Under the pieces are notes generated by a model. It was not told where the DNA came from. It saw only the letters and a list, made by a program, of their open reading frames with translations, and made no database searches. The translations under genes were made by a program, and so were the position numbers. From positions 1-44,407 of the forward strand of contig JAABSM010000026.1 in NCBI GenBank assembly GCA_011390365.1: DNA of 44,407 bases. The letters run 5' to 3'. The stretch comes from Gammaproteobacteria bacterium (GTDB lineage: Bacteria > Pseudomonadota > Gammaproteobacteria > Chromatiales > Chromatiaceae). The first letter of the stretch is position 1, and every line of letters starts with the position of its first letter. Shown piece after piece: positions 2,159-44,407 of this stretch.

Positions 2159-2414
2159 AAGCCACAAGCCGGGGTGAGCCGGGACCAAGTCCGATTTCCT
2201 CGCCAGACCATCCCGTCCTATCCGCCTTGTTGCTTTTACCCGCGTCCTTATTTGGCGATGCGCCCGGCCCTTCCACCGCGGTGGATGTCGCCATATCCTT
2301 CGGGCATGCCACCGTCGGCGTTTTTCCCGCCGGGGTTCGCGGCAAGGGCGGGGTTTCGATTCTTTTTCTCCATACCGACACCTCCGACCTATCCCCCGCC
2401 CTCGCAAATTTGGC
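2159..2414. other. Intergenic stretch with no recognisable gene
   Basis: Between the exported-protein gene and the first 141-bp repeat I see no supported gene. Open frames exist on both strands, but their Pro/Arg-rich translations are typical of high-GC noise. No terminator hairpin with a T tract is apparent. Confidence 0.4.
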
Positions 2415-2555
2415 GAACTCCAAACCATGCCGCGGTCGGCGGAGCGCGAGGCTCGACTCGTGAACGCGTGCATTGGCGCGTCAAGCCGCGCGCTCCGCGA
2501 TTGTGAGCGATGCATCCGGCTGAAAGGCCGTCACTCAGCACTCAGGTCACAGGCT
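2415..2555 (+). repeat. 141-bp direct repeat, copy 1
   Basis: This unit recurs at 4475-4615 in the same orientation with about two mismatches (2461 t versus c, and one a/t change in gatgcatccgg/gatgcttccgg). Both copies begin with GAACTCCAAACC and end with GGTCACAGGCT. GAAC is the target tetranucleotide used by IS91-type rolling-circle elements, and relics of such an element lie between the copies. The repeat may therefore be an element end or a duplicated flank; which of the two cannot be decided from sequence alone. Confidence 0.85.
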
Positions 2556-2646
2556 CATAGCCGCATCGGCGGTGACGGCCCCTCCGCCGAGCCGTACCTC
2601 CCCCCGGCCAACGCCCCTGCGCTTCTCCTCATGGCGGACGCTCGGA

Positions 2647-2666
2647 TACTGTCTATATTTACAGTA
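2647..2666. promoter_or_regulatory. LexA-type SOS box
   Basis: The 20-bp palindrome TACTGTCTATATTTACAGTA matches the enterobacterial SOS consensus CTGT-N8-ACAG exactly in its core, and nearly completely in the TA-rich centre. It ends 13 bp before an ATG at 2680 that opens the frame running into the IS91-type transposase relic. If functional it would put that gene, or whatever now lies downstream, under DNA-damage control. The assignment rests on motif match alone. Confidence 0.55.
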
Positions 2667-2679
2667 TCACCGCTTCACC

Positions 2680-3181
2680 ATGGATTCGAACAGGCAGCCG
2701 CCCAACCGCCGGGATGCGTCCCAGCCCCTTACCGTGCGCGTCGGCCCACCGACACCCCGCTGTATCGGGTGGTGCAAAACCACCGGCAGAGACCTTCCTT
2801 TCCCTGTGTCATGACGACAGGGAACAGGAGCGCGTCTCCCCTCACGCCGAACGGGAACTACGCCGATTTCTGGAGTGCGGCATCCTGGCTTACGGCTTTG
2901 CCAGGGCGCGCTGCGACGAATGCGGCGATGATTTCCTGATCGCCTTCTCCTGCAAAGGGCGGGGCGTCCGCCCCTCATGTAACACCCGCCGCAGACAGCA
3001 GAGACCGCCGCCCACCTCGCGCTCGCTCTTTCCTGTATCGGTGAAGCGAGTGGAGCGGCGGTGGCGGGAGACGGGCCTGCAAGCGAGGGTCATTGGGGCG
3101 ACTGGGAATGGCCACCGATCCTCAACCCGACTCCGAAGCAAAGAACACTGGAGCAACAAACGCAGTTTGCGACTATCTAGG
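2680..3181 (+). pseudogene. IS91-family transposase, N-terminal relic (frameshifted)
   Basis: This is the N-terminal zinc-binding part of an IS91-type (Y2, rolling-circle) transposase spread over several frames. From an ATG at 2680 one frame gives a leader (MDSNRQPPNRRD). A second frame gives TPLYRVVQNH. A third gives ETFLSLCHDD, then ERELRRFLECGILAYGFARA, RCDECGDDFLIAFSCKGRG and PSCNTRR with the CxxC...CxxC zinc ligands. Near 2997 the frame shifts again (AETAAHLA) and homology is lost; the frame closes at 3181. The catalytic HUH and Tyr motifs are absent. The C-terminal end of a similar protein is at 4067-4234, so the middle has been replaced. It is non-functional. Confidence 0.75.
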
Positions 3182-3203
3182 ATGAGCTGACAAACTGCGT
3201 TTG
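3157..3203. repeat. Perfect 13-bp inverted repeat
   Basis: CAAACGCAGTTTG at 3157-3169 and CAAACTGCGTTTG at 3191-3203 are exact reverse complements separated by 21 bp. They lie between the transposase relic and the TA promoter. It may be the hairpin of a mobile-element end or a terminator insulating the TA operon, but there is no T tract. Confidence 0.6.
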
Positions 3204-3257
3204 CCACTCCCAACCCCCGCTTCGGTTACCGACAATGGGCCATAGTCCCGGATCGGC

Positions 3258-3300
3258 TTGACAACCAGACCTGGTCAGACCAGACTCTGGTCCGGAGGTG
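3258..3300 (+). promoter_or_regulatory. Promoter, operator and ribosome-binding site of the first TA operon
   Basis: A consensus -35 box TTGACA sits at 3258-3263. Overlapping the expected -10 region are two operator-like dyads: GACC-T-GGTC at 3268-3276 and the perfect 15-bp palindrome GACCAGACTCTGGTC at 3278-3292. This layout is typical of antitoxin autorepression by Phd/YefM proteins. A Shine-Dalgarno GGAGG at 3294-3298 lies 9 nt before the antitoxin ATG and fixes that start. No clear TATAAT match is seen, which fits a weak, repressor-controlled promoter. Confidence 0.6.
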
Positions 3301-3307
3301 CCACAAC

Positions 3308-3553
3308 ATGCATATTACAAATATCTCGGACGCCAAGAGCTCCCTCTCCAGCCTGATCAGTCAAGTCCAGCAAGGCAAAGAGGTGATCATCGGAAAGGCC
3401 GGCAAGCCCATCGCCAAGCTGGTTCCCTATGAAGAGAGCCAGGCAGATCGCCAACTGGGCGGAAGCTGGGAAGGCCAGGTGAAGATGTCGGACGATTTCG
3501 ATCAACTCCCCGAGGGGATCATGGACGCCTTCGCCGGCAACGATAGACCATGA
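3308..3553 (+). CDS. Phd/YefM-family antitoxin
   Basis: An 81-aa antitoxin of the Phd/YefM type. The N-terminal half is the DNA-binding fold (MHITNISDAKSSLSSLISQV, then GKEVIIGKAGKPIAKLVPY, the typical 'I.k.gkPvA.Lvp' strand). The C-terminal tail (about residues 50-81) is acidic and would neutralise the toxin. It overlaps the PIN toxin gene by ATGA (3550-3553), giving translational coupling. The palindromic operator just upstream fits autoregulation by the antitoxin/toxin complex. The module lies inside the remains of an IS91-type element. Confidence 0.9.
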   Translation: MHITNISDAKSSLSSLISQVQQGKEVIIGKAGKPIAKLVPYEESQADRQLGGSWEGQVKMSDDFDQLPEGIMDAFAGNDRP

Positions 3554-3927
3554 ACCTACTTCTGGATACCCACGCACTTATCTGGGCGCTTGCCAACGAC
3601 CCCGCCCTTGATGCTGGTGCGCGAAAAGCCATCATCGACGGGCGCAACCTGGTCTTCGTGAGCGCTGCGAATGTTTGGGAGATCTCGATCAAACGCGCCC
3701 TGGGAAAGCTGGAAGCCCCGGACAATCTGCTGGAAGAGATCGATGCGCACCGCTTTACCCATCTGGACATGACCGCACGCCACGCCGACGCGGCGGGACG
3801 GTTGCCGAATATTCACGCAGCCCCTTTCGACCGCATGCTGGTGGCGCAAGCGCAACTGGAAAAGCTCGTACTGGTGACCCGCGACGAATTTATTCCGCAG
3901 TATGCTGTGAAGTGCCTGAAGGCCTGA
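3550..3927 (+). CDS. PIN-domain toxin (VapC-like ribonuclease)
   Basis: A 125-aa PIN-domain endoribonuclease, the toxin partner of the Phd-type antitoxin with which it overlaps by 4 bp. The acidic metal-binding residues of the active site are in place: D6 in LLLDTHALIWAL, E44 in NVWEISIK, D94 in APFDRMLVAQA and D112 in LVTRDEF. The DTHALIW and PFDRML signatures belong to the PIN group usually paired with Phd-like antitoxins rather than classical VapB. Length is normal and no frame damage is visible, so the module looks intact although its surroundings are decayed. The RNA target cannot be inferred. Confidence 0.92.
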   Translation: MNLLLDTHALIWALANDPALDAGARKAIIDGRNLVFVSAANVWEISIKRALGKLEAPDNLLEEIDAHRFTHLDMTARHADAAGRLPNIHAAPFDRMLVAQAQLEKLVLVTRDEFIPQYAVKCLKA

Positions 3928-4066
3928 ACTGGCTTGTTCACGGGAATATCGGGGGCCTTGTTGCCGAAAATCAATCTGCGGTAGTATGGTGCCTCTTGGA
4001 GTCAGCCGGTAATGCAAAATGAAAGACCTGACCCTGATTGTGCTTTATCCGTCATGAGCTTGCCGA
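3928..4066. other. Short spacer after the TA module
   Basis: No gene is recognised. The stretch joins the end of the toxin gene to the transposase C-terminal relic and contains no obvious terminator. Confidence 0.3.
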
Positions 4067-4234
4067 ATGATCGGCGAGCCCGCCACACCGCCCCGAATCG
4101 CCTCCGCCAGGGGACCGCCAGAGTGGTACGAAGGCTCCGGTGAGGAGGCCATCGACGCCTTCGATCACCTTCAGGGCGACCCTCTCACCCAGCCCGAGCC
4201 GGAGTACGAGTAGGATCAACGGGTGTTTTGGTAG
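4067..4234 (+). pseudogene. IS91-family transposase, C-terminal relic
   Basis: Translation from 4067 gives IGEPATPPRIASARGPP, EWYEGSGEEAIDAFDHLQGD and PLTQPEPEYE. This is the characteristic C-terminal tail of IS91-type transposases, in which HIGEP...PP.I..ARGPP..W and DPLAQP.PEYE.DQRV.W recur. A TAG at 4211-4213 interrupts the tail, but the same frame then reads DQRVFW and a second TAG at 4232-4234, the expected true end. The first stop is therefore a nonsense mutation. It is on the same strand as the N-terminal relic at 2680, with the Phd/PIN module in the place of the missing catalytic middle. Confidence 0.7.
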
Positions 4235-4474
4235 CGGCCTGCCGATCGTTCGATAAGCTCACGACAGGTGGGCTGCGGGACTGGCGGTTGCCGTTCGCGC
4301 GAAGCTTGCTTCTTTCCCTCCCTCTCCCTGCCGCGACAACCGCCTCAAATACCTCCCGACAGCCCAATTTCCGCTTCATCATCGCCCTCCGGGTCAGAGG
4401 GGGCTCAAGCTGAATCTTGACGGCGTTCCCGCTCTGGGGATACTTTGGCGTCGGGGGTTGGATTTCCTATCCTT
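4235..4474. other. Intergenic remnant, no gene seen
   Basis: This may be the 3' end of the IS91-type element. No coding frame, strong hairpin or known repeat is recognised. Confidence 0.3.
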
Positions 4475-4615
4475 GAACTCCAAACCATGCCGCGGTCGGC
4501 GGAGCGCGAGGCTCGACTCGCGAACGCGTGCATTGGCGCGTCAAGCCGCGCGCTCCGCGATTGTGAGCGATGCTTCCGGCTGAAAGGCCGTCACTCAGCA
4601 CTCAGGTCACAGGCT
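4475..4615 (+). repeat. 141-bp direct repeat, copy 2
   Basis: Second copy of the 2415-2555 repeat, in the same orientation. Its last bases run into the 3' end of the minus-strand FGE-like gene: the stop codon (TCA on + at 4607-4609) and the final Leu and Ser codons are repeat sequence. The insertion or recombination boundary thus lies exactly at the end of that gene. Confidence 0.85.
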
Positions 4616-5626
4616 TTTACAACACCGAAACCCCAGATGATAGTTGTGGTGGCTATGGTCGCTCATCACCGGCGTGCCGTGCCAGTAGGGTGCGCGCCAA
4701 CGGCACCAGTCCTGATGGGCGTAGTAGCGGTCGAAGATGAACCAGCTGCCCTTCATCTCGACTACGCCCAGCTCCTGGCTCCCCTCGCTGGCCATCTGCT
4801 CGGGTTTGAGGGGCAGGTTCATGTGCTCGGCGGCGTTGCCGTGCTGATCATAGACCCCCAGCGGACTGCGGCAGTCGGGGAACTGGCCGGCGGGATAGGT
4901 GTTGGAGCCACAGCGGTTCCAGCCGCCGCCGTTGCAGTCGGGGCTCTTGCGACTGGCGGCGGCGCAGACGCCTTTCTGGTAGCCACCTTCGCCGTAGGCC
5001 CAGCGTCTGTCGCCCTTTCTGGCGCGGTTATGGGCGCTGCGCATGCGCGCCACGGCATCCTTTTGCGAGACCCCTTCGGCCAGGTCGAAACGGTAGTCCG
5101 GCGGCTCCAGGGCGCCGGCGCAGGCCCCTTCCCACTCGTGGGCATCGCATAGCCGCTTGCCCACCGCCTCGCACAACTGGGCGGCCTCGCGGGCGCGAAC
5201 CCACACGACCGGATATTCGCAGGGAATGTTGGGGAACTCGAACTGATCGATACAGGCCTTGGCCTCTTTGGGATTCTGGGTGGCGGGATCGTAGAGGGGG
5301 GCCATGTACTTGTCGCCGCAGATCTTCTCGAACTCCGGGTTGGCGTATCCTTGCAGCCGTTCGCCCAGTTTTTCGCGACACTCCGCCGGCGTGCTCGGGT
5401 GTTCGGTGATCGCCGGGTTGCCCTGGCCAGCGTAGCCCGAATCGTTGAAGATCGCCGCTACCCGCGCCATCTCGTCCGCGCTCAGGTCGTGGGTCTCTTG
5501 CAGCACCTTGTACAGGCGCTGGTTCTGTTCGGCGAAGCTCTCCGCCAGCGCGTTGCTGGCCAAGAGTCCCGTTACGATCGCGAGCAGGTACAGGCTAGTA
5601 GGTCTGCGCATACGTTTTTCGTGCAT
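4607..5626 (-). CDS. Exported formylglycine-generating-enzyme-like (FGE-sulfatase) domain protein
   Basis: About 339 aa with a signal peptide (MRRPTSLYLLAIVTGLLASNALA-ES). The C-terminal two thirds has SUMF1/FGE-sulfatase family signatures: PVVWVRAREAAQLCEAVGKR followed by LCDAHEWE, then GVYDQHGNAAEHM, and the terminal YHLGFRCC. Many family members are not true sulfatase activators but binding or C-type-lectin-like domains; this one is Cys-rich and periplasmic, so the role is open. The frame can start at a TTG (5632), but the ATG at 5626 sits 7 nt after an ACGGGG ribosome-binding site. The last two residues and the stop come from the 141-bp repeat, so the native C-terminus may have been slightly longer. 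Confidence 0.8.
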   Translation of the reverse strand: MHEKRMRRPTSLYLLAIVTGLLASNALAESFAEQNQRLYKVLQETHDLSADEMARVAAIFNDSGYAGQGNPAITEHPSTPAECREKLGERLQGYANPEFEKICGDKYMAPLYDPATQNPKEAKACIDQFEFPNIPCEYPVVWVRAREAAQLCEAVGKRLCDAHEWEGACAGALEPPDYRFDLAEGVSQKDAVARMRSAHNRARKGDRRWAYGEGGYQKGVCAAASRKSPDCNGGGWNRCGSNTYPAGQFPDCRSPLGVYDQHGNAAEHMNLPLKPEQMASEGSQELGVVEMKGSWFIFDRYYAHQDWCRWRAPYWHGTPVMSDHSHHNYHLGFRCCKSL

Positions 5627-5642
5627 TATCAACCCCGTAAAA

Positions 5643-5710
5643 ATCTCTCACGGAGGCACGGAGCACACGGAGAAATCCCCCTCCGTGATCTCTGTGTCTC
5701 AGTGAGAGAT
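5643..5710. repeat. Imperfect palindrome of the 'CACGGAG/ACAGAG' repeat family
   Basis: The outer arms ATCTCTCAC (5643-5651) and GTGAGAGAT (5702-5710) are perfect. The interior (CGGAGGCACGGAGCACACGG versus CTCCGTGATCTCTGTGTC) is imperfectly complementary. Related sequence occurs at 14162-14243, 20573-20590, 20982-21035 and 42766-42800. It lies just upstream of the FGE-like gene and close to the stop of the next minus-strand gene, so it could act as an intercistronic hairpin. Confidence 0.6.
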
Positions 5711-5714
5711 CTTA

Positions 5715-7526
5715 TCAATCCTCGGGCTCCTTGCGCATCAGGTAGAAGAAATCCCTATTGTCGGCGTAACCGATGAAACGGGGCGTGAAGGTATCCCCCA
5801 CCCGCTGATCCACCTCGATCATGTCGTCGATGAGATGCTGCACCACGATCTGTTCCTGGTCGACGGAGTAGAGGGCGAGGTAGGTGTGTTCCAGGGCGTT
5901 CATGTCGAGCATCATGGCATCACGACAGCCGTAGGCCTGGAACACCCGGGTCATGGCGGAGGGGGTGGCGCTGGAGAACCAGCCGTAGATCAGGAAACGG
6001 CGTTGCGGCGTCTCCTGGATGCAGGCCCCGGCGCGCAGGGTGCGCAGCTTGCCCTCGGCCGAACCGGACCAGTTGCCCCGCCCCCAGCGGGCGACGAATT
6101 CGCCGGGATGGGATGCCTGGCTTTGCGGGTTGTATTCGAGCAGCGGCACGCCGTTCTGGCGGGCGTGGCGCAGTCGCGGCAGTAGATTATCGTCATCCTG
6201 CTCGTGCCAGGTCTTCATCTCCACCCTGCCGTCGTCGCGCGCATAGAGGGTCGAGAGCCCGGGTTGCAGGCGGCTGAAGAGGACGCCGTGGGAGAGAAAG
6301 CCGTAGTGGCTGCCATGATTGCGGTTGGCCAGGTCGCCGTAGTGAAAGGCGCTGTGGCTGCGCTTGAAGCCGCCGGTAAAGGTGGCGACGGTGCGCGCCG
6401 CCTGATCGGCGCTGATGCTGCCGGTGGTGATCAGCGGCCCGGGGTCGTCGAAGCCGTCGGGGCCGGGCAGGCGGGGGTCGCGCACCGTCTCCAGGGTGCG
6501 GTCGGACCAGTTCAGGCGCGGATGGTCGGTACCCAGCTCGAAGCCCAGTTCCAGCTGGGAGAGATCGAAGGCGACCAGATAGGTGAGGGCCGAGTTCTCC
6601 ACCGAATCCAGGGGACGCACCTTGATACGGTCGCTGGCGAGGATCTCCGGGGCGATGGCGCGGGGTTCGATGACGCTTAGCTGAACCCCGGACTGGCCCT
6701 GTACCGGATACCAGCAGCCCAGGGTCAGGGCCTGGTTGGAGGCCGCCACCTTGATATCAAGGTTACGCGGAATCACCCCCTGATCAACGAAGTTCGCCCC
6801 CAGTTTCGCCCGTAATGGGGCTTCAGGCGACGGCGCCAGGCACTCCGACTCGTCGCTCGCCTCGCCCCGCTCCAGAAAGGCGTCGCGGTAGAGGCTCTGC
6901 TTGACCAGCCCGACGAGCTTCTCGCCGCCCCAGATGCGATCCCGCAGCAGGTCGGTGACCTGCTCCAGTCGCGTGCGATGTCCCGCCGGCTTTCTGCGCA
7001 CCAACAGCTTGCCGTCGCACAGGCTGGCGAAGATGGGCTGGCTGTTGTGGGCCAGCTCCAGGCGGTTGCCCTGCCTGCGTCGCCACAGGGTGCAGGGGGT
7101 GGATTGTTCACCCTCGATGATCACCAGACCGTCGGCATGGGCGGGGTCCAGGGCGACCCGCTGGGTTTCTGGCAAGGGGTTTTCCAGGTGGTAGACGACG
7201 GGTGCGTCGCCATCCCGCCAGCGCAGGGTGAGCAGGAACCAGCTGTTGATATTGGGATTGAGATTCTCCAGGATCGCCTCGCCGCGGCCGCCATCTTCGG
7301 TGGCAACCACCAGGGAGTCGCTTTGACGGGCGCTCTGAAGCTCAAGGATATCATCGATGGGGGGGAGTTCAGCGGCGGCCAGGGGGGGCGGCAACGCGCT
7401 GAACGCCCACAGGCAGAAGGAAGCCGCCAACCACCGCGCTCGAATGGGTGCGGAGCGATGCTGAGATAAGTAGGGGATGGCGTTTCTCGCTCTTTTCGTG
7501 ACCAAGGTTTTCATGATCCAGTGCAT
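5715..7526 (-). CDS. Large exported protein, possible phosphodiester-glycosidase (NAGPA-like) domain
   Basis: About 604 aa if it starts at the ATG at 7526 (MHWIMKTLVTKRARN...), before a hydrophobic segment LAASFCLWAFSALPPPLAAA that looks like a signal peptide. ATGs at 7544 and 7514 are alternatives; the frame is open to 7736, but that part overlaps a cupin remnant and is probably not native. The C-terminal ~250 residues resemble the NAGPA/DUF2233 fold: FTGGFKRSHSAFHYGD, then HGVLFSR, FLIYGWFSSATPSAMTRVFQ and DAMMLDMNALEHTYLALY, where family members have a NLDGGGS-type strand. The match is by pattern only. The N-terminal half is unrecognised. Same strand as the FGE-like gene, ~90 bp apart, so they may be co-expressed. 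Confidence 0.6.
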   Translation of the reverse strand: MHWIMKTLVTKRARNAIPYLSQHRSAPIRARWLAASFCLWAFSALPPPLAAAELPPIDDILELQSARQSDSLVVATEDGGRGEAILENLNPNINSWFLLTLRWRDGDAPVVYHLENPLPETQRVALDPAHADGLVIIEGEQSTPCTLWRRRQGNRLELAHNSQPIFASLCDGKLLVRRKPAGHRTRLEQVTDLLRDRIWGGEKLVGLVKQSLYRDAFLERGEASDESECLAPSPEAPLRAKLGANFVDQGVIPRNLDIKVAASNQALTLGCWYPVQGQSGVQLSVIEPRAIAPEILASDRIKVRPLDSVENSALTYLVAFDLSQLELGFELGTDHPRLNWSDRTLETVRDPRLPGPDGFDDPGPLITTGSISADQAARTVATFTGGFKRSHSAFHYGDLANRNHGSHYGFLSHGVLFSRLQPGLSTLYARDDGRVEMKTWHEQDDDNLLPRLRHARQNGVPLLEYNPQSQASHPGEFVARWGRGNWSGSAEGKLRTLRAGACIQETPQRRFLIYGWFSSATPSAMTRVFQAYGCRDAMMLDMNALEHTYLALYSVDQEQIVVQHLIDDMIEVDQRVGDTFTPRFIGYADNRDFFYLMRKEPED

Positions 7527-7674
7527 GAACTTGCGGGCTCCCATCCTGGGATGCCTCGACAAGCAGACCGGGTTTTTCGGTAACCCCTGAATCATAGCAA
7601 AGAAATGCTTGGCGTGCCTTGTTCGGTCGCGGTCCGGGTGCGATTCGAACTGATGTGGTTGCCCACAGGCAATG

Positions 7675-8007
7675 TCATTCCGGCCATGGAAGGCGTCCTT
7701 GCAATAGCAATACCCACTCGTGCTCCTCCTGGTCATACCAGAAGCCAGGCGGCGAGGCGTGTCTCTGGGAGACGATGCGCTCCACGCGAAACTGCTTGCC
7801 GGAAAAGAGGGGATGCAGCAACTCCTCAGAGAGCGGGCTGGGAATGTCGGATAGCAGGGATAGGGGATGCGAAGAGGTCAGGGCGGGCGGCTTGTTCCTT
7901 GTTGCGGGATATGCTACCGGAGCGGGCGGGGGAGTAGAAGCTGGAACGGGCGCAGGGGCTGTATTCGAAATTTCCGATTTATCTAATCCAATAAAATCAA
8001 TTCTCAA
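7675..8007 (-). pseudogene. Cupin-domain protein remnant
   Basis: The frame contains LLSDIPSPLSEELLHPLF, then FRVERIVSQRHASPPGFWYD and QEEHEWVLLLQG, the N-terminal part and metal-binding His/Glu motif of small cupins. It ends abruptly (GRLPWPE) where about 35 more residues would complete the barrel. A different frame just downstream (to ~7590) reads PHQFESHPDRDRTRHAKHFF, resembling a degraded last cupin strand, so a frameshift is likely. The only start for the long frame is TTG at 8007, ahead of a Pro/Ala-rich stretch. Reading it as an intact 110-aa gene is less likely. Confidence 0.45.
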
Positions 8008-8067
8008 ATCAGAGGCCCGGGTCTATCCTTTACTCAAAGTTCAACCAATCCACATGGGAGACCCACC

Positions 8068-8301
8068 ATGACCAAGACCATCAGCTTCGCGATCATGCAC
8101 TTTTCCGTCGCCTTCGCCGTGGCCTGGGCGTTGACCGGAGACATCGTCATCGGCGGCGCGGTGGCGCTGGTCGAACCCATGGTCAACACCGTCGCCTACC
8201 ACTTTCACGAGAAGTTCTGGAAGAGGTTGGAGCAGCGCCCCAGGCACTCGATGAGTGGGAGTCAACCTGCTGGGGGAGGCGACTTTCAGGTCGCGCATTG
8301 A
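8068..8301 (+). CDS. DUF2061 small membrane protein
   Basis: A 77-aa protein with the DUF2061 pattern: MTKTISFAIMHFSVAFAVAW, a first membrane helix, TGDIVIGGAVALVEPMVNTV as the second, and the conserved YHFHEKFWKRL end. The role of the family is unknown; it is an inner-membrane protein. The start is supported by GGGAGAC about 7 nt upstream. The C-terminal tail beyond WKRLEQ is low-complexity and may be a lineage-specific extension. It stands alone, convergent with ubiE. Confidence 0.85.
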   Translation: MTKTISFAIMHFSVAFAVAWALTGDIVIGGAVALVEPMVNTVAYHFHEKFWKRLEQRPRHSMSGSQPAGGGDFQVAH

Positions 8302-8319
8302 GAGAGGATCGCGGATGCC

Positions 8320-9069
8320 TCAGGCCTTGAACCCGCGATGGATGGCGACGATGCCGCCGGTGAGGTTGTGGAAATCGACCCGTTCGAAACCGGCATCCTC
8401 CATCATCCCCTGGAGGGTCCGCTGGTCCGGGTGCATGCGTATCGACTCCGCCAGGTAGCGGTAGCTCTCCGCGTCGTTGGCCACCAGTCGCCCCATCAGC
8501 GGCAGGAAGCCGAAGGAGTAGGCGTCGTAGCCCTTTTGCAAGACCTTGTCGTTGGGATGGGAGAACTCCAGCACCAGCGCGCGACCGCCGGGACGGATCA
8601 CCCGCCGCATCTCCGCCAGCGCCTTGGCCTTGTCGGTGACGTTACGCAGGCCGAAGGCGATGCTCACCAGGTCGAAGGCGTCGTCGGGAAAGGGGATGGT
8701 CTCGGCGTTGACCTGGGCGAACTCCAGGTTACCGGTCACCCCCTTGTCCGCCATGCGATCACGACCCACGCCGAGCATGGCGGCGTTGATATCGGACATC
8801 ACCACCAGCCCCTCGGGGCCGACCAGGCCGGAGTAGCGAACCACCAGATCGCCGGTGCCGGAGGCGAGATCCAGCACCCGCTGGCCGGCGCGCACCCCGG
8901 CCAGGTCCACCGCCATGCGCTTCCACAGCCGATGCACGCCGAACGACATCAGGTCGTTCATCAGGTCGTACTTGCCGGCGACGGAGTCGAACACGCCGCG
9001 CACCATCCCGGCCTTCTCGTCGTTGGCGACCTGCTTGTAACCGAAATGGGTGGTGTCGTTGTCCGTCAT
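8320..9069 (-). CDS. ubiE: Ubiquinone/menaquinone biosynthesis C-methyltransferase UbiE
   Basis: A 249-aa SAM-dependent C-methyltransferase acting on the demethylated quinol ring in ubiquinone (and menaquinone) synthesis at the inner membrane. Visible signatures: [20 protein letters not shown] with [14 protein letters not shown] at the N-terminus, SAM motif [12 protein letters not shown], and UbiE signature blocks [15 protein letters not shown] and SFGFLPLMG. Length is normal. The ATG overlaps the stop of the upstream DUF971 gene by one base (TGATG, 9067-9071), giving a tightly coupled two-gene operon, an arrangement seen in many gammaproteobacteria. Confidence 0.97.
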
Positions 9070-9440
9070 CAAGAGGCCTTCTCTTCCCGCTGGTAGCCCG
9101 AGGCCTCCAGGCGTCGCAGGTACTCCTGCCAGTTCTTGTCGTGGTTGATCCCCAGGTCGTAGAGGGTCTCCCAGGAGTAGATGCCGGTGTTGTGGCCGTC
9201 GTCGAAGTGGATCACCACCGCGTAGTTGCCCACCGGCGAGATCTGGTCAATCCCCACATTCTCCTTGCCGGTTTGCAGCACCTCCTGACCGGGACCATGT
9301 CCGCGCACCTCGGCGGAGGGGGAGTAGACCCGCAGGTATTCGCAGGGCAGGTTGAAGTGCTTGCCGTCATTGAAGGTGATTTCGAGCACCTTGGACTTGC
9401 GGTGCAGGTTGAGTTCTGTGGGAATCGGCTTGTCGGACAT
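9069..9440 (-). CDS. DUF971 (GBBH-like N-terminal domain) protein
   Basis: A 123-aa protein with the DUF971 fold: [55 protein letters not shown] and WETLYDLG. In gamma-butyrobetaine hydroxylases this fold is a substrate/zinc module; in stand-alone form its role is unclear, with links proposed to Fe-S or quinone metabolism. The ATG at 9440 has GGAG 7 nt upstream and gives the normal family length; the frame remains open further upstream but there encodes a palindromic repeat and part of DUF4197 in another frame. Coupled to ubiE. A second DUF971 gene, fused to a MoaD-like domain, is at 30199. Confidence 0.93.
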
Positions 9441-9512
9441 GGTGATACTCCATCGGCGATTTGCGGAAGCATTGTATTTGGGGGTGCCCGCAACCGCAAA
9501 CAAGTTCACGTC

Positions 9513-9597
9513 CGTGGGAGCGGTTTGCAACCGCGAAAACGGAGCCAGATCGAAGCCCCGTAATCGCGGATGCAATCCGCTCCCACGATCTGAAGGC
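9513..9597. repeat. Inverted-repeat element (GTGGGAGCGG...ATCCGCGA type)
   Basis: CGTGGGAGCGGTTTGCAACC (from 9513) pairs with GATGCAATCCGCTCCCACG (ending 9597). The arms, including GCG/CGC steps further in, form a long hairpin in the gap between DUF4197 and DUF971. This sequence type is a widespread REP-like repeat in gammaproteobacteria. Confidence 0.7.
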
Positions 9598-39056: not shown

Positions 39057-39809
39057 TCAGAAACTGTAGAACACCCCGCCATAGCCCGACCACTGGTCGC
39101 GTCGCGTGACCAGCGGGCTGTCGCCGACCCCGTCGGAGGCGCGCGAGTATTCGGCGTTGAAGATCATCGAAAAGCGCTCATCAAGACGGATCATCGCATT
39201 GCCGCCGAATGAGAGGAAGTAGGTCTCCTCGGGGTCGTAATCGGGGCGGCGCGGTCTCGCCTCGTGACGGTCGACGCCAAAGTAGTAGTCCGTCTTGGCG
39301 TCGCTCCAGTACTCCAGACCAGTGTACCAGGAGAGCATGTAGCGCTGGCCTTGCACAATGGTGCGCTCATATTCCGCCTTCGCCGACAGACCGTTGTGGC
39401 TATCCGAGATGTCGTGCATCAGCGAGGTCTTGAACTGGCCGCCGGCGGCGGCGAATTCGTGGACCAGGCCGGCCTCCCAGGCGGCGTCCCGATCCGCCAT
39501 GCCCGCCAGCGCGGCGCTGTCGTCATGGTCGTAGCCATCGAAGGTGCGGCGCACCTCCAGCGCCACGCGCTGGCCCTGATCGTCCTGATAAAAGCGGTAG
39601 CCGCCGCGAATGCCGTGCAGGTAGAAACGGTCGTGTTCGGCGAAGAGCAGGGGAAAGAGGTAGCCCTCCTCTCCCACCCCTCGGTAGTAGCTGGTGTTGA
39701 CCGAGGCGGAGAGGCCCAGCCGCAGGTCGGTTTCGGCAAAGAGGGGGGCCGCGAGGGTGGCGCAGGTCAGCCCGAGCAGGGTAGCGTATCGTGTAATGGG
39801 TTTTTTCAT
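39057..39809 (-). CDS. MipA/OmpV-family outer-membrane protein
   Basis: 250 aa from the ATG at 39809, which has GGAG 9 nt upstream and a signal peptide (MKKPITRYATLLGLTCATLAAPLFA-ET). The mature protein is an alternating beta-strand porin-like barrel ending in the outer-membrane signature GYGGVFYSF with a terminal Phe. Internal blocks FPLLFAEHDRFYLHGIRGGY and YYFGVDRHEARPRRPDY (the 'YyYGV...ea...r..Y' signature of MipA/OmpV) support the family. Members act in peptidoglycan-enzyme scaffolding or osmotic/antibiotic response. Operon with the CPBP protease. Confidence 0.88.
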   Translation of the reverse strand: MKKPITRYATLLGLTCATLAAPLFAETDLRLGLSASVNTSYYRGVGEEGYLFPLLFAEHDRFYLHGIRGGYRFYQDDQGQRVALEVRRTFDGYDHDDSAALAGMADRDAAWEAGLVHEFAAAGGQFKTSLMHDISDSHNGLSAKAEYERTIVQGQRYMLSWYTGLEYWSDAKTDYYFGVDRHEARPRRPDYDPEETYFLSFGGNAMIRLDERFSMIFNAEYSRASDGVGDSPLVTRRDQWSGYGGVFYSF

Positions 39810-39949
39810 CGATCTTGACTCCGTGGTGTTCGATTGATGGACCAAGAGTAGTTCGATGAAGGGGCGAAGAATTGTAAAAAGGCGAACTGGCGAATTTATT
39901 ACACTATTTTTCGTCTATTGAGGGCGGAGGGCCGCTGCGGGTAGGAGCG

Positions 39950-40163
39950 ATGAAGAGCAATAAACAACGACGACGGGAGATCAAGGAGCGACGCTTGCAG
40001 CGGGCGCTTGCGATGATCGATGTGGATCCCTCGGTTAAGGGCAATCCCTTGCCAGAGGGGGCGGTGGAGGCGGATGTGGAACTCCTCGCCCAACACAACA
40101 ACTCCTACTCCTTGCCCCTGTTTTATGTGGACCGCCCCTTCGTCTGTCGTGACTGCGGCAGTC
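39950..40163 (+). pseudogene. Zinc-ribbon protein gene truncated by repeat insertion
   Basis: MKSNKQRRREIKERRLQRAL to PLFYVDRPFVCRDCGSR matches the N-terminus of small zinc-ribbon proteins, in which a YVD.PF.CRDCG block is followed by a Trp-rich W...QQKWWYE segment and a second CxxC. Here the frame runs from CRDCGSR straight into GTAGGGTGCGTTAG repeats at 40164 and continues (to 40393) only as translated repeat. The second zinc ligand pair is missing. It is broken by the repeat cluster. Confidence 0.7.
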
Positions 40164-40588
40164 GCGTAGGGTGCGTTAGGCGCGCCGGCACGGACCTTGA
40201 ACCTTGCGCGAAAGCTTGCGCGCGCCGTAACGCACCATTCCCCGCCCAAACATTGCGGCAAAAGGTGCGTTACGCCCCGCGCGGCGCTTCGGGGTTGGGT
40301 GCAATCATCGGGCCTCGGGGCGCATTGAACGGCGGTGGTTTTTGGAAGCGCGGGACTAACGCACCCTACATCGGGTCGCGTAGGGTGCGTTAGGCGCGCC
40401 GGCACGGACCTTGAACCTTGCACGAAACCCTCCGCGCGCCGTAACGCACCAACCCCGCCCGAACATTGCGGCAAAAGGTGCGTTACGCCCCGCTCGGCGC
40501 TTCGGGGTTGGGTGCAATCATCGGGCCTCGGGGCGCATTGAACGGCGGTGGTTTTTGGCAAAGGCGGGGCTAACGCACCCTACATTGG
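40161..40588 (+). repeat. 214-bp tandem duplication of a GTGCGTTA-type REP element
   Basis: Two copies, 40161-40374 and 40375-40588, with exact period 214 and few differences. Each contains GTAGGGTGCGTTAGGCGCGC, GCGCGCCGTAACGCACCA, GGCAAAAGGTGCGTTACGCC and CTAACGCACCCTACAT: the complementary phrases GTAGGGTGCGTTAG and CTAACGCACCCTAC make each unit a large compound palindrome. Further copies are at 40594-40725, 41353-41430 and 42846-42958. Confidence 0.88.
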
Positions 40589-40760
40589 GTCGCACCACCT
40601 CCGCCGGAAAATCGCGGCCAATGGTGCGTTACGCCTCGCCGGTAATTTGGTGATCTGATACGATTGCATACAACCGGGCGATGTCAGGTCTCGTGGCGCT
40701 TGCAAGGCGGGGCCAACGCACCCTTCGATGATCCGATTCACCGCCAAAGGAGGACTGAGA

Positions 40761-41348
40761 ATGCCGGAGTATCGCCGCCTCATCCATCCCGGCGGCGCCT
40801 TCTTTTTCACCCTTACCGCCTTTCGACGCGCGCCCTGGCTTTGCGAGCCGGAGGCGTTGAAACTCATGCGGGAGGCGATTCAGAAGGTGCGCCGGGAACG
40901 CCCCTTCCGCATCGACGCCTGGGTCACCTTGCCGGAGCATATCCACTGCATCTGGACCTTGCCCGAGGGCGAAGGGGATTATTCGGAGCGTTGGCGATTG
41001 CTCAAAAGGGCGGTCTCGGCGGGGCTGACGCCGGAGGTGGTGGCGGGCTTCCAGGGTGGCGCGAGACGCTACCGGCACCTGACCGCCCCACCAAAGGGGT
41101 CGCGGAAAAAGCGGGGGGAGCGACTGATCTGGCAACGGCGATTCTGGGAGCACAAGATTCGGGATGACCGGGACTACGCCTACCATTGCGACTACATCCA
41201 CTACAATCCCGTCAAACACGGCTATGTGACCGCCCCGGTGGATTGGCCCTGGTCGAGCTTTCACCGTTTCGTTCGCGAGGGCGTCTATTCGGTCGACTGG
41301 GGCGCGGATGACCCTCCCGATATCCCGGATGACATCGGCCATGAATAA
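40761..41348 (+). CDS. REP-associated tyrosine transposase (RAYT, TnpA_REP)
   Basis: 195 aa. A single-strand DNA endonuclease of the Y1-HUH family that nicks REP hairpins. The HUH motif is EHIHCIW (H60, H62) and the nucleophile is expected among Y141, Y145 and Y148 in YAYHCDYIHYNPVKHG, the RAYT hallmark. The N-terminal YRRLIHPGGAFFFTLTAFRR and C-terminal DWPWSSFHRF also match. The frame opens at 40728, but AAAGGAGG at 40746-40753 fixes the start at 40761. GTGCGTTA-type repeats flank it on both sides, as expected of a RAYT and its cognate REPs. The gene looks intact. Confidence 0.93.
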   Translation: MPEYRRLIHPGGAFFFTLTAFRRAPWLCEPEALKLMREAIQKVRRERPFRIDAWVTLPEHIHCIWTLPEGEGDYSERWRLLKRAVSAGLTPEVVAGFQGGARRYRHLTAPPKGSRKKRGERLIWQRRFWEHKIRDDRDYAYHCDYIHYNPVKHGYVTAPVDWPWSSFHRFVREGVYSVDWGADDPPDIPDDIGHE

Positions 41349-41352
41349 AACC

Positions 41353-41430
41353 TGCGTAGGGTGCGTTAGACGCGCCCCGCCCAGGTCGAACCTTGCACGA
41401 AAGCCCGCGCACGCCGTAACGCACCACCCC
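41353..41430. repeat. GTGCGTTA-type REP element downstream of the RAYT gene
   Basis: GCGTAGGGTGCGTTAGACGC at the left pairs with GCCGTAACGCACCA at the right, around CGAACCTTGCACGAAAGCCC, the same centre as in the tandem duplication. It separates the RAYT gene from the second TA promoter. Confidence 0.75.
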
Positions 41431-41441
41431 CCGTCTGTTAC

Positions 41442-41493
41442 TTGCAAACGAAAACCGAGAGGGCTATATTCTGACCATATGGTCATTTAAGGA
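41442..41493 (+). promoter_or_regulatory. Promoter and operator of the second TA-jetB operon
   Basis: TTGCAA (41442-41447), a 17-bp spacer and TATATT (41465-41470) form a good promoter. A perfect 14-bp palindrome TGACCATATGGTCA (41472-41485) covers the expected start point, a classic antitoxin operator. A Shine-Dalgarno AAGGA (41489-41493) precedes the ATG at 41502. Because toxin and jetB overlap, this promoter probably drives the defence genes too. Confidence 0.6.
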
Positions 41494-41501
41494 TGTTCGC
41501 G

Positions 41502-41732
41502 ATGCACAGAGTACAAGTTGTCGAGGCAAAGGCACATTTTTCCGCATTGCTTGCCGAGGTGGAGGCTGGTGGTGAAGTTGAGATCACTAAGCGGGGCAAG
41601 GTTGTGGCCCGGCTGGTGCCTGACAAACCCCGAATGGCTGCCGATCTTTTTCGCACCTTGTGGGACGGCGAGCCGGTGGACCTGGAAGCCCCGAACGATG
41701 CTCCTCCTGAACCGGTAAACGGCTTCGACTGA
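41502..41732 (+). CDS. Phd/YefM-family antitoxin
   Basis: 76 aa from the ATG at 41502, chosen because AAGGA lies 8 nt upstream; a start at 41493 would overlap that site. MHRVQVVEAKAHFSALLAEV then GGEVEITKRGKVVARLVPDK is the Phd DNA-binding half, and the acidic tail DGEPVDLEAPNDAPPEPVNG the toxin-binding half. It is followed by the PIN toxin with one base between. A perfect palindromic operator lies upstream. It differs clearly in sequence from the antitoxin at 3308. Confidence 0.9.
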   Translation: MHRVQVVEAKAHFSALLAEVEAGGEVEITKRGKVVARLVPDKPRMAADLFRTLWDGEPVDLEAPNDAPPEPVNGFD

Positions 41733-41733
41733 A

Positions 41734-42135
41734 GTGTCACGCTACCTGCTCGACACCAATATCCTCATCGCCGCCATCAAGGGCGCGCAACCCGTTCGCC
41801 AACGCCTTGAAGTCACCGCTCTGTCCGATCTGATCCTTTCGCCCATCGTGCTGGGCGAACTCAAACTGGGCGTTGAGAAAAGCGCCCAACGGGAAAAGAA
41901 TGGGGAGAAGCTGGTGCATGTCGTCTCAGGCCTCCCGTTCTATCCGCTGGAGGCTGGAGCCGTTGAGCAGTATGCGAGGATACGCGCACTGTTGGAGAGC
42001 CGGGGAACGCCGATCGGGGGCAACGATTACTGGATAGCTGCGCAGGCACGTGCGATGGATGCGGTGGTGGTGACCGACAACCAGCGAGAATTCCAGCGGG
42101 TGCCTGGACTGAGACTCGAAAATTGGCTGACATGA
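41734..42135 (+). CDS. PIN-domain toxin (VapC/FitB-like ribonuclease)
   Basis: 133 aa starting at GTG (41734), one base after the antitoxin stop. PIN active-site acids: D7 in YLLDTNILIAAIKG, E42 in IVLGELKLGVEKS, D98 in PIGGNDYWIAAQA and D115 in VVVTDNQREF. The DTNIL and GGNDxxIAA motifs are those of VapC/FitB toxins, a different PIN subgroup from the toxin at 3550. Its stop overlaps the jetB start (ATGA, 42132-42135), so jetB translation is coupled to the toxin. That coupling is unusual. Confidence 0.93.
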   Translation: MSRYLLDTNILIAAIKGAQPVRQRLEVTALSDLILSPIVLGELKLGVEKSAQREKNGEKLVHVVSGLPFYPLEAGAVEQYARIRALLESRGTPIGGNDYWIAAQARAMDAVVVTDNQREFQRVPGLRLENWLT

Positions 42136-42761
42136 CTGAGGAAGCCATTGTCGAACCGCGGGCCGAGCAGGCCCCGCTCACCGACCAACCCATTAAGACC
42201 GCCGTCCAGGAATTGCTGAAATACGGCGTGCTGGAGGCGGAGCAGAAGCCGAATCTCTATCGCACCGCGCTGTCGGCCTATGACCGCATCGACGGAATCC
42301 TGGAACCGCTGGACCTGGCGTTGCGCATCGACGATGTGCGCGGGCTCTGTTTTGTGGCCATCTCAGAGGGCTATGCGGACAGCGAGCGGGACGAGTGGAG
42401 CCATCCGCTGGTACGGCGGCAGCGCCTGACACTGGAGCAATCCCTGCTGGTGGCGATCCTGCGTCGGCTCTATGTGGCCCACGAGATGGAGGCGGGGGTG
42501 GGTACGGCCCATGCGCTGGTGAGCCTGGACGAGCTGGTGCCGGAGTTGAACCAGTTTCTCGGCGACAAGGGCAGCGACAGCCAGAACGACAAGCGCCTGC
42601 GGCAACTGCTGGAGCAACTGCGCGGCCATGGGCTGGTGTCGGAGATCGACAAGAACGAACAGCTCTCGATCCGGCCGCTGATTGTGCACATCGCCAATCC
42701 CGAGAACCTTCAGGCGTTGTTGGGGGCTTTCAGGGAGCGGACGGTCGTATCCGAAGATTGA
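42132..42761 (+). CDS. jetB: JetB/MksE-like DUF4194 protein (Wadjet component)
   Basis: 209 aa. The DUF4194 pattern is clear: AVQELLKYGVLEAEQKPNLY then LSAYDRIDGILEPLDLALRI, DDVRGLCFVAISEGYADSER, HPLVRRQRLTLEQSLLVAIL, LVSLDELVPELNQFLGDKG and LRQLLEQLRGHGLVSEID. JetB/MksE is the kleisin-associated subunit of the Wadjet (JetABCD) / MksBEFG SMC complex that cleaves circular plasmids by loop extrusion. jetC follows. The usual upstream jetA (DUF3375 kleisin) is absent; in its place is a TA module with a 4-bp overlap. Function without JetA is uncertain. Confidence 0.87.
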   Translation: MTEEAIVEPRAEQAPLTDQPIKTAVQELLKYGVLEAEQKPNLYRTALSAYDRIDGILEPLDLALRIDDVRGLCFVAISEGYADSERDEWSHPLVRRQRLTLEQSLLVAILRRLYVAHEMEAGVGTAHALVSLDELVPELNQFLGDKGSDSQNDKRLRQLLEQLRGHGLVSEIDKNEQLSIRPLIVHIANPENLQALLGAFRERTVVSED

Positions 42762-42765
42762 CTTA

Positions 42766-43002
42766 ACCACAGAGGGCGCAGAGTTCACAGAGAGAACCGG
42801 ATCTCTGTTGTAGCGTACCCTTGCTAAAATGTAGCCGAGTGGGGTGGTGATGGTGCGTTACGCCCCGCTCAGTGTTTTGAATTATGTGGCGATGATCGAG
42901 ATTTGGAGGGGTACGATGATTCGTTGTTATCACAAGGGCGGGGCTAACGCACCCTACGCGATCCGTCTCTCCGTGTCTTATTGGCACCATGAGAGACGCT
43001 GA
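42766..43002. repeat. Repeat insertion between jetB and jetC
   Basis: A CTTAACCACAGAGGGCGCAG fragment of the ACAGAG family is followed by a GTGCGTTA-type REP (GGTGCGTTACGCCCCGC from about 42851, GGCGGGGCTAACGCACCC ending about 42954) and then TCTCTCCGTGTCTT. The REP appears to have landed inside the ACAGAG-type palindrome. The two genes are separated by 241 bp, where related operons have them adjacent. Confidence 0.7.
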
Positions 43003-44407
43003 ATGAGCGCAGTCACCGAAAACACCCAGCAAGACCTCTTCGCCGAGCCCGCCGAACGCCGCTCCTACATCATTGAGCAGTTGGAGGTCTACAACTGGGG
43101 TCCGTTTCAGGGGCTGCATCGGGCGGAGTTCGATGGGCGGGGGAGCGCGATCATCGGCCAGACGGGCAGCGGCAAGACCACGCTGGTGGATGCGATGATG
43201 ACCCTGATCGCGCCGCGACCGTTGTACAACCTGGCCTCCACCGGCGGCCACGAGAGCGACCGGGATTTGGTCTCCTATGTGCGCGGTCGCACGGGCGAGG
43301 GTAATCGGGACGACGAGACCCATATCGCCCGGCCCGGGGCCACGGTGACCGGGATCGGCCTGCGCTTCGGTGACGGCACGCGCACGGTCACCCTCACCGC
43401 CCTGTTCTGGCTCGACGGCAGCAGCTCCGCCACAGCCGATCTCAAGAAGCTCTGGATCTTCGCCCGTAACACCGATCAGACCCTGGCCGACTGGCTGCGG
43501 CTGCACCGGGAGGGCGGGGCGCGGGCGGTGAAGCAATTGGCCCGGGAGCTGCCGGAGACCGAGGTGCGGGACAGCAAGAAGGCCTATCTGGCCCTGGCGA
43601 TCCGCTTCTTCGAGGTGGGGGAGAACGCCTTTCAGCTCCTCAACCGCGCCGCCGGGCTCAAGCAGCTCAACAGCATCGACGAGCTGTTTCGGGAGCTGGT
43701 ATTGGAAGACAAATCCGCCTTCGAGCAGGCTGCGGAGGTGATCCAGGGCTTCGACGTGTTGCAGGAGATCCACGTCGAACTCCAGACCGCCCGCGACCAG
43801 CAGCGCTCCCTGCTGCCCATCGAACAGGAGGAGAAGGTGCGCCGCGCCAAGGAGGCCCAGCGTGAGGCGCTGGAGGCCCTGAAGCAGATCCTGCCCCTGT
43901 GGTTCGCCGACCGCGGCCTGGGGCTGTGGCAGGCCCGGCGCGCGGAACTCGACCATGAGATGCGTCAGGCCGAGGCGGCGCTGGAGCAACTGCGGCTGGA
44001 GCTGGAACGCCGGGAACAGGCCGTCGAGGACGCACACCGTTTCTACGTCGAGCAGGGCGGCGGGAGTATCGAGCAGCTGGAGCGCCAGATCGCCCAGCAG
44101 GAGCGCATCCTGCGGGAGTGCGAGCGCAACGCCCGCGACTATCAGACCATCATCCGCGCCCTCGGCTTCGACGAGGCCCTGACGCCATCGGCGCTGACCG
44201 CCAACCAGGGGCAGGGCCGGCGCATCCAGGCCGAGACCGCCGAACGTCAGCAGGCGGTGGAGGAGCAGCGCTTCCGTCAGGGCGGCGAACTCCAGGAGCT
44301 GGAGAATCGCCAGGCCGAACTGGCGGATGCGCTGAAGAAGGCCAAGGCCCACAGCCACTCCAACATCGACGCCCGCTTCCTCCAGTTCAAGACCGACCTC
44401 GCCGAGG
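43003..44407 (+). CDS. jetC: JetC/MksB-like SMC-type ATPase (3' end outside window)
   Basis: The frame is open from the ATG at 43003 to the window end (468 codons seen; family members exceed 1,000). YIIEQLEVYNWGPFQGLHRA EFDG begins an ABC/SMC ATPase head with the Walker A loop GQTGSGKTT (52-60). DLVSYVRGRTGEGNRDDET and VTGIGLRFGDGTRTVTLTAL, then LNSIDELFRELVLEDKSAFE are typical of JetC/MukB-like proteins. From about residue 255 a long Glu/Arg/Gln/Leu coiled coil begins. Walker B and the signature motif lie beyond the window. The start has GAGAG 8-10 nt upstream. It is the motor of a Wadjet-type complex with the JetB upstream. Confidence 0.88.
   Translation, partial: MSAVTENTQQDLFAEPAERRSYIIEQLEVYNWGPFQGLHRAEFDGRGSAIIGQTGSGKTTLVDAMMTLIAPRPLYNLASTGGHESDRDLVSYVRGRTGEGNRDDETHIARPGATVTGIGLRFGDGTRTVTLTALFWLDGSSSATADLKKLWIFARNTDQTLADWLRLHREGGARAVKQLARELPETEVRDSKKAYLALAIRFFEVGENAFQLLNRAAGLKQLNSIDELFRELVLEDKSAFEQAAEVIQGFDVLQEIHVELQTARDQQRSLLPIEQEEKVRRAKEAQREALEALKQILPLWFADRGLGLWQARRAELDHEMRQAEAALEQLRLELERREQAVEDAHRFYVEQGGGSIEQLERQIAQQERILRECERNARDYQTIIRALGFDEALTPSALTANQGQGRRIQAETAERQQAVEEQRFRQGGELQELENRQAELADALKKAKAHSHSNIDARFLQFKTDLAE

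Follow-up and report, generated by a model that had tools for sequence, protein, structure and literature searches.

The stretch of DNA analysed here (the window), contig C88 of the gammaproteobacterial draft genome G000 taken over its entire 44,407 nucleotides, probably carries one part of a type I Wadjet operon that has been dispersed at REP elements, with the Jet proteins meeting in trans and a toxin-antitoxin (TA) pair inserted among the genes. According to this reading, an anti-plasmid operon was broken at small repeats: the ‘missing’ jetA is intact elsewhere and a TA pair sits in its place, an arrangement with more than one case in the family. Because a PADLOC Wadjet call needs the full JetABCD, fragments being at best recorded as ‘other’ if two components are co-located (according to PMC9252829), dispersed Wadjet sets are easily missed. 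Can a Wadjet complex be built from unlinked genes, and are TA pairs at the junction stabilising? Both questions can now be tested.

Gene order and candidate control signals on contig C88

On one strand of C88, phd, a PIN toxin gene, jetB and the start of jetC follow each other (Table 1), and the right end of the contig falls inside jetC. Domain and sequence checks agree with the initial annotation on this co-oriented arrangement, on the ATGA at 42132-42135, in which the PIN gene ends and jetB begins, and on the promoter-like site and palindrome in front. The annotation was also right that no DUF3375 gene lies upstream of jetB on C88; the gene before phd encodes a REP-associated tyrosine transposase (RAYT), so that the jetA–jetB (A|B) junction is taken by the Phd-PIN pair and the RAYT gene. 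The Phd/YefM and PIN genes adjoin and score above the cut-offs of PF02604 and PF01850, and the pair is predicted to be a type II TA, with NCBIfam VapC models scoring the toxin under their cut-offs. Like known Phd-YefM/PIN pairs, it forms a small antitoxin-then-toxin operon headed by a promoter and a palindrome; unlike them, it runs into jetB through the overlapping stop of its toxin gene, and a defence gene is therefore attached to the TA operon. The start of jetB, moreover, aligns with that in the contiguous operon L040 (ATG ACT GAG GAA in the window, ATG AGT GAG GAA in L040, whose jetA ends in TGATG). Together, the overlap and this alignment place the TA pair exactly at the former jetA position, as had been proposed.

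Table 1. Positions of genes, repeats and candidate control signals in the window
Feature	Position	Strand	Evidence
REP-like palindromic repeats left of the RAYT gene	40168..40640		four exact AGGGTGCGTTA cores
RAYT gene	40728..41348	+	NCBIfam NF047646, 178 bits (cut-off 80)
REP-like repeat, RAYT–phd interval	41358..41431		core 41358-41368; resembles another G002 repeat
Promoter-like site, TTGCAA-17-TATATT	41442..41470	+	promoter scan; hexamers and spacing identical in G002
Perfect palindrome TGACCATATGGTCA, 14 bases	41472..41485		palindrome search; one change in G002
phd-type antitoxin gene	41493..41732	+	PF02604, 38 bits; TIGR01552, 38 bits
PIN-domain toxin gene (VapC-like), GTG start	41734..42135	+	PF01850, 55 bits
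jetB (DUF4194, KITE subunit)	42132..42761	+	PF13835, 105 bits; PADLOC JetB PDLC00480, 299 bits
REP-like element, jetB–jetC interval	42834..42961		core 42945-42955
jetC (SMC-like ATPase), first 468 codons	43003..44406	+	PF13555; PADLOC JetC PDLC00511, 520 bits

A single promoter-like site precedes phd-pin-jetB in the promoter scan, which found two such sites in 41340-43200 (mean in shuffles, 0.5) and passed none between jetB and jetC, where the gap of 241 bases holds a REP-like element. This layout fits co-expression of phd, pin, jetB and jetC, and the palindrome (one match, against 0.08 expected with at most two mismatches) probably serves as an operator. The Rfam scan of 39800-44407 returned zero matches at gathering scores. 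As for jetC, its PDLC00511 match spans model positions 9-464 of 1108, and beyond residue 468 no match was found in the G000 assembly.

Where might the TA pair have come from? A cassette repeated within G000 was rejected, the next best PIN match there being 31% identical. A phage or plasmid source of the TA-jetB unit was likewise set aside: the scan of viral contigs found no relative of the PIN toxin, and the plasmid search with JetB gave one record, 52% identical, inside a standard jetABCD.

The other jet genes of G000 and the repeats beside them

The initial annotation had suggested that the system uses a different kleisin or that jetA was lost to the TA module. Both ideas were rejected in view of an intact DUF3375 gene on C133 (5416-6912, 497 aa; PF11855, 323 bits; PADLOC JetA PDLC00452, 702 bits), the product of which is 63-69% identical to linked JetAs, namely those of g21, g35 and g60; for JetB and N-terminal JetC the corresponding ranges are 65-77% and 55-60%. 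The nearest matches of all three proteins lie in contiguous jetABCD operons within the same family, and the JetA and JetC of G112 and G146 are about 30% identical to those of G000. On C133, jetA is interior to the contig, has no jetB beside it and adjoins a glycogen phosphorylase gene; no promoter-like site was found upstream of it. It is the only DUF3375 gene that the genome search found in G000, and the one other DUF4194 gene is MksE-like and belongs to a PADLOC subfamily other than PDLC00480; the TA-jetB locus is therefore not a partial duplicate of a complete operon, an outcome that the annotation had named as refuting its idea.

Its proposal to look for jetD and a kleisin gene past position 44,407 led off C88, which ends there: jetD lies intact on C114, with both the DUF3322 and the JetD C-terminal (Toprim) domains (PF11795, PF09983; PADLOC JetD PDLC00532, 517 bits). 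Since C88 and C114 are draft contigs that each terminate near jet genes, it was considered that they might be neighbours across a short gap. In the nearest relative, G002, a stretch encoding what we take to be a DUF3368-like protein (no match to it was found in Pfam or NCBIfam) occurs twice, beside a jetC remnant and upstream of jetD, and the end of C114 therefore leaves the adjacency of the two contigs undecided. In its components G000 resembles type I Wadjet (DUF3375-DUF4194-SMC-Toprim), having PDLC00452, PDLC00480, PDLC00511 (to residue 468) and PDLC00532; it differs from the single jetABCD operon in that jetA on C133 is unlinked to the jetB-jetC that follow the TA pair on C88, jetD is on C114, and REP elements lie at the junctions.

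The REP cores mark each former junction, at jetA, phd-pin-jetB, jetC and jetD, with REP-like sequence 19 bp downstream of jetA and, on the upstream side, 125 bp from phd, 48 bp from jetC and 62 bp from jetD. Across the 4.26 Mb of G000, the AGGGTGCGTTA core has 36 copies in 24 clusters (the reversed control has none), nine of them beside jet genes. The cores at 40168, 40357, 40382 and 40571 alternate in orientation, and those at 40571 (-) and 41358 (+) bracket the RAYT gene, the product of which is 93% identical to a protein at the equivalent position in G002. The element between jetB and jetC has 17 partial matches in G000, itself included, and a counterpart, 95% identical, follows jetB in G002. 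A RAYT gene between inverted REP-like palindromes, with cores after a GTAG-like head, is in keeping with the RAYT/REP systems described in PMC2817692; the differences are that the copies in G000 stand at junctions of a former defence operon and that its exact cores number 36, against the more than 100 REPs per genome given there as normal. No REP core was found in the contiguous operons L040, L044 and L046 when searched with a 10-base core. Nor does the operon break of g60 show a core of the AGGGTGCGTTA kind, and REP elements are therefore unable to account for every split. A second repeat, of the CCACAGAGG type, also occurs near jetA and jetD; C133 has five more copies away from jetA.

The jetA–jetB junction in relatives and the competing readings

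The gene-neighbourhood check that the annotation had called for was run on 45 family genomes with jetB, at the A|B junction only; 20 of them were read over only about 1.5 kb either side of jetB. JetA lies directly upstream of jetB in 36. TA genes, of three types, occupy the junction in four, in one of which jetA is intact just upstream; other genomes have Uma2, DUF4351 or one unnamed ORF there. As 25 of the 30 upstream ORFs had themselves gone into the JetA profile of the survey, the identity of the 30 was verified against Pfam, which returned 25 DUF3375, 3 PIN, 1 Uma2 and 1 weak unrelated family; a second set of JetA frames gave DUF3375 in 16 of 16. Junction gaps were measured from domain starts rather than start codons, and the large negative gaps in G033, G102, G139, G031 and G072 reflect over-long frames.

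Could the dispersal be false, foreign contigs having been assembled or binned into G000? The genome is a draft in 169 contigs, and repeats are typical breakpoints of misassembly; however, contamination is 0.32%, jetA is embedded in C133 next to a glycogen phosphorylase gene whose best match (75%) comes from G027 of the same genus, the independent record G002 repeats the order RAYT-phd-pin-jetB, and the split in G060 is seen inside long contigs, all of which makes such an artefact scarcely credible. It is also extremely improbable that JetB and JetC pair with another kleisin rather than with the JetA of C133, for instance one of the DUF5716 type. G000 does have a second SMC system, for which C44 carries an mksE-mksF-like pair and C163 an MksB-like gene, but these proteins fall into PDLC00482, 00445 and 00515 against PDLC00480 and PDLC00511 in the window, and the DUF3375 JetA in G000 is of the kind found with such JetBs. 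A weightier, though still rather unlikely, alternative holds that the Wadjet system is decaying: insertions split the operon, the intactness of its genes merely reflects recency, and what the window shows of the TA pair and jetB is a leftover. G002 would be a case in point, having no jetA match, a jetC remnant of about 54-57 residues, a jetD with one in-frame stop and HicBA between the remnants; G027 (89% complete) has no JetA, JetC, JetD or JetB-family match, and the C-terminal part of JetC was not found in the G000 assembly. Against decay, jetA, jetB and jetD of G000 are open along their full length, the JetA and JetC branches are no longer than in contiguous operons (in trees weakly rooted by two distant sequences), dN/dS of JetB between G000 and G002 is 0.065, and the operons of G060 and G093 are split yet their genes are full-length.

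Does the TA pair, then, guard or addict the Jet genes, Phd regulating jetB-jetC and the toxin being freed by loss of, or attack on, the locus or its products? The signs in G000 are limited to adjoining, overlapping genes with one promoter-like site in common, the overlap and the promoter-operator being kept in G002, and the TA genes at four junctions point the same way. There is a precedent in CreTA, which guards CRISPR-Cas and likewise adjoins a defence system, although CreTA is described as an RNA-based pair under repression by the CRISPR effector, whereas the G000 pair consists of proteins. The idea is nonetheless improbable: in G143 the DUF433-DUF5615 pair runs along the other strand and jetA is separated from jetB by other genes spanning 7.1 kb, genes such as Uma2 occupy the same junction elsewhere, and in G002 the pair failed to prevent the loss of jetA and jetC. 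The toxin is not known to depend on Jet proteins. A related and quite doubtful proposal is that the A|B junction is a docking site for TA or defence-linked genes and that the Phd-PIN pair, having taken over the promoter and translational coupling of jetB-jetC, guards through its toxin a Wadjet complex formed in trans from dispersed genes; if so, loss of the locus or attack by an invader would free the toxin.

Dispersal at REP elements, with assembly in trans, remains the reading that we favour. REP or RAYT elements would have inserted at operon junctions, recombination or RAYT action may have carried jetA away, and the TA pair would have arrived as a passenger at the insertion-prone A|B junction, its promoter now perhaps driving jetB-jetC and its ATGA overlap standing in for the translational coupling of jetB to jetA, so that together they would replace what jetA formerly provided. 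The four Jet proteins would then still come together in trans and act against small circular plasmids, restriction of which needs all four subunits according to PMC10586767. Counting against this are that jetC is seen to residue 468 only, its remainder being missing from the assembly, that in G002, despite the shared TA-jetB layout, jetA and the greater part of jetC are gone and jetD has an in-frame stop, and that G000 has no promoter-like site before jetA and a JetD branch somewhat longer than those of g21, g35 and g60. Taken with its relatives, G000 fits a gradation that starts at contiguous jetABCD, passes through TA insertion between jetA and jetB and leads to the dispersed G000 and G060 and the decayed G002. 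G081 is the intermediate, with the order jetA, MazE/AbrB-type antitoxin, PIN toxin, jetB, jetC, jetD, and G060 is a case of dispersal without visible loss, with jetA-jetB on C9, jetC and jetD on C1, and full-length profile matches throughout.

Dispersal of the jet genes

The right end of the window carries, as the initial annotation described, a phd antitoxin gene, a PIN toxin gene (pin), jetB and jetC on one strand, with an ATGA common to the end of pin and the start of jetB. A promoter-like site and also a perfect 14-base palindrome lie in front of phd (Table). When the plus strand was scanned from 41340 to 43200, two promoter-like sites (41442 and 41873) were obtained and none in the jetB-jetC interval; for jetB-jetC no good candidate emerged other than the promoter of the toxin-antitoxin (TA) pair, which would drive them by co-transcription with phd-pin.

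Features of the jet loci and of inserts at the jetA-jetB junction
Feature	Contig or stretch	Position	Strand	Remark
RAYT gene	C88 (window)	40728-41348	+	right end
phd	C88	41493-41732	+	right end
pin	C88	41734-42135	+	right end
jetB	C88	42132-42761	+	right end
jetC	C88	43003 to contig end	+	first 468 codons
jetA	C133	5416-6912	-	intact
jetD	C114	85423-86559	-	full-length
HicBA TA pair	L039 (G002)	2843-3198		between jetB and jetC remnant
304-aa ORF	L132 (G105)	7956-8867		in place of jetA
Insert	G081			MazE/AbrB-type antitoxin, PIN toxin
Insert, 7.1 kb	L118 (G143)	2172-9529		AAA-DUF4143 gene, PIN gene, 1051-aa TIR-WD40-Roc protein, DUF433-DUF5615 pair
Insert	G067			Uma2
Insert	G039			DUF4351
Insert, 266 bases	G036			no gene named

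The kleisin had been thought missing or exchanged. Instead, a DUF3375 search of the same genome found a single gene, an intact jetA on another contig, which PADLOC model PDLC00452 identifies as JetA with 702 bits. A glycogen phosphorylase gene of equal direction precedes it at a distance of 132 bases, and a RimK-like gene lies on its other side; jetB is absent beside it, and the DNA in front of it gave no promoter-like site. Both the DUF3375 gene and jetD were located, on C133 and C114, but not the remainder of jetC, which had no match anywhere in the assembly (a 4.26 Mb draft of 169 contigs with a completeness of 98% and a contamination of 0.3%, in which the window is the whole of C88). The region 5' of jetD holds palindromic repeats (REP elements) and then, where the contig ends, a PIN-like stretch that we take to be DUF3368. 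Contig boundaries or intervening genes can split systems, according to PADLOC's authors (PMC9252829).

Kinship of the Jet proteins and their state in relatives

In genera g21 (G020, G069, G099, G120) and g35 (G035, G078) of the family, jetA, jetB and jetC adjoin one another; jetD comes next in all of these genomes except G078, whose contig ends inside jetC. The C133 JetA is 66-69% identical to JetA of these genera and 63-64% to that of genus g60; the corresponding values are 69-77% and 65-67% for the window's JetB, and 55-60% and 56-57% for JetC, taken over its N-terminal part only. JetA and JetC of G112 and G146, also in the family, are only about 30% identical to the C133 JetA and the window's JetC. 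Judged by sequence, these Jet proteins belong together. Because JetA, JetB and JetD have been kept intact, the products of the separate loci probably form a Wadjet complex in trans; in Bacillus subtilis, all four subunits are needed for anti-plasmid action, JetA being the kleisin, JetB the KITE and JetC the SMC protein, with a Toprim domain in JetD (PMC10586767).

In the protein trees, the tip of our genome lies 0.23 from the ingroup ancestor for JetA (others 0.36-0.50) and 0.37 for JetC (others 0.54-0.70). JetB, at 0.68, falls between g60 (0.24-0.29) and g21/g35 (0.73-0.92), and JetD, at 0.54, is longer than in g21, g35 and g60 (0.37-0.52). Given these branch lengths, and with weakly rooted trees, relaxed constraint is not clearly indicated for JetA or JetC and is weakly indicated for JetD.

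The order RAYT-phd-pin-jetB recurs in the nearest relative, G002, a member of another genus, in whose genome jetA had no match; its jetB is followed by a HicBA pair and then by what is left of jetC, about 54-57 residues, and its jetD, on a different contig from jetB, has one in-frame stop. Synonymous divergence (dS) between the two genomes is lowest for RAYT (0.12) and jetB (0.23), followed by pin (0.56), jetD (0.57), rpoB (0.70, in a frame taking in some codons 5' of the start), phd (0.93) and glgP (0.96). Since their dS is far below that of the other genes, RAYT and jetB probably underwent exchange or conversion between the two lineages once these had split; the TA genes have diverged about as much as the rest. 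Window positions 40168-42961 compared with L039 form a mosaic, low in dS at RAYT and jetB and far higher at phd and pin between them. The 7 nonsynonymous and 31 synonymous changes in jetB (dN/dS 0.065) are not assignable to either lineage.

G060, a g60 genome of about 20 contigs, has jetA-jetB on its contig C9 and jetC and jetD 1.8 kb apart on C1; this interval (L087 8455-10233) holds a repetitive stretch whose frames read MDSMDS/STWSTW-like repeats. In G093, jetA-jetB, jetC and jetD are spread over three small contigs.

Insertions between jetA and jetB

JetB was matched (E 0.001 or better) in 45 of 147 family genomes, and its surroundings were examined in all 45, in 20 of them over only ~1.5 kb each side. 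In 36, JetA lies directly upstream (<=200 bases, counted up to the JetB domain); the two genes are separated in five (Table), one locus (G084) is cut by a contig end, and three (ours, G002 and G105) have jetB without an adjoining jetA. In the one-contig genome G105, jetB is preceded by an ORF that had no match in Pfam, PADLOC or NCBIfam, and jetA is absent from the 8.8 kb upstream of jetB; by eye, this ORF resembles Rpn-type nucleases. The junction appears to take insertions, albeit on small numbers and from a count of this junction alone. TA genes occupy it in four of the 45 and are of three types, our genome and G002 sharing one. Separately, G023 has a DUF29 gene between jetB and jetC (L127 8876-9310).

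Do the TA genes guard the Jet genes, or are they passengers? For a guarding role, CreTA offers a precedent. However, the DUF433-DUF5615 pair of G143, which we take to be a TA pair, lies on the opposite strand, other inserts at the junction are not TA genes, and G002 has lost jet genes; these observations speak for the TA genes as passengers at an insertion-prone site. Neither dispersed Wadjet genes nor TA pairs within the operon appear in the titles or abstract openings of the open-licence Wadjet and CreTA papers surveyed; a HicA-SMC fusion has been reported, with no mention of jetA in the part of that paper available (PMC10865869).

REP elements beside the jet genes

REP elements are present at the breakpoints of the operon. 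Copies of the REP core AGGGTGCGTTA number 36 in the genome and fall into 24 clusters spread over 18 contigs; the reversed-pattern control has none. Nine of the 36 adjoin jet genes: six surround RAYT-phd-pin-jetB in the window, whose first 40 kb contain none, one lies 19 bp after jetA, and two precede jetD, by 62 and 250 bp. The 10-base core is absent from the fetched stretches of contiguous operons (L040, L044, L046) and of g60 loci (L050, L087). If clusters are taken to be random and limited to intergenic DNA, with an assumed share of 12%, the chance of the jetA and jetD distances together is roughly 1.5e-4, and that of all four distances roughly 2e-8. Inverted REPs flank RAYT genes, whose activity could account for DNA rearrangements, according to PMC2817692.

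The second SMC system of the genome (MukBEF/Mks-like) is also split: an MksB-like gene, with no mksE or mksF match in the fetched 11.6 kb, lies on C163 (L093 6217-10260), and mksE-mksF-like genes lie on C44 (L004 2356-4472).
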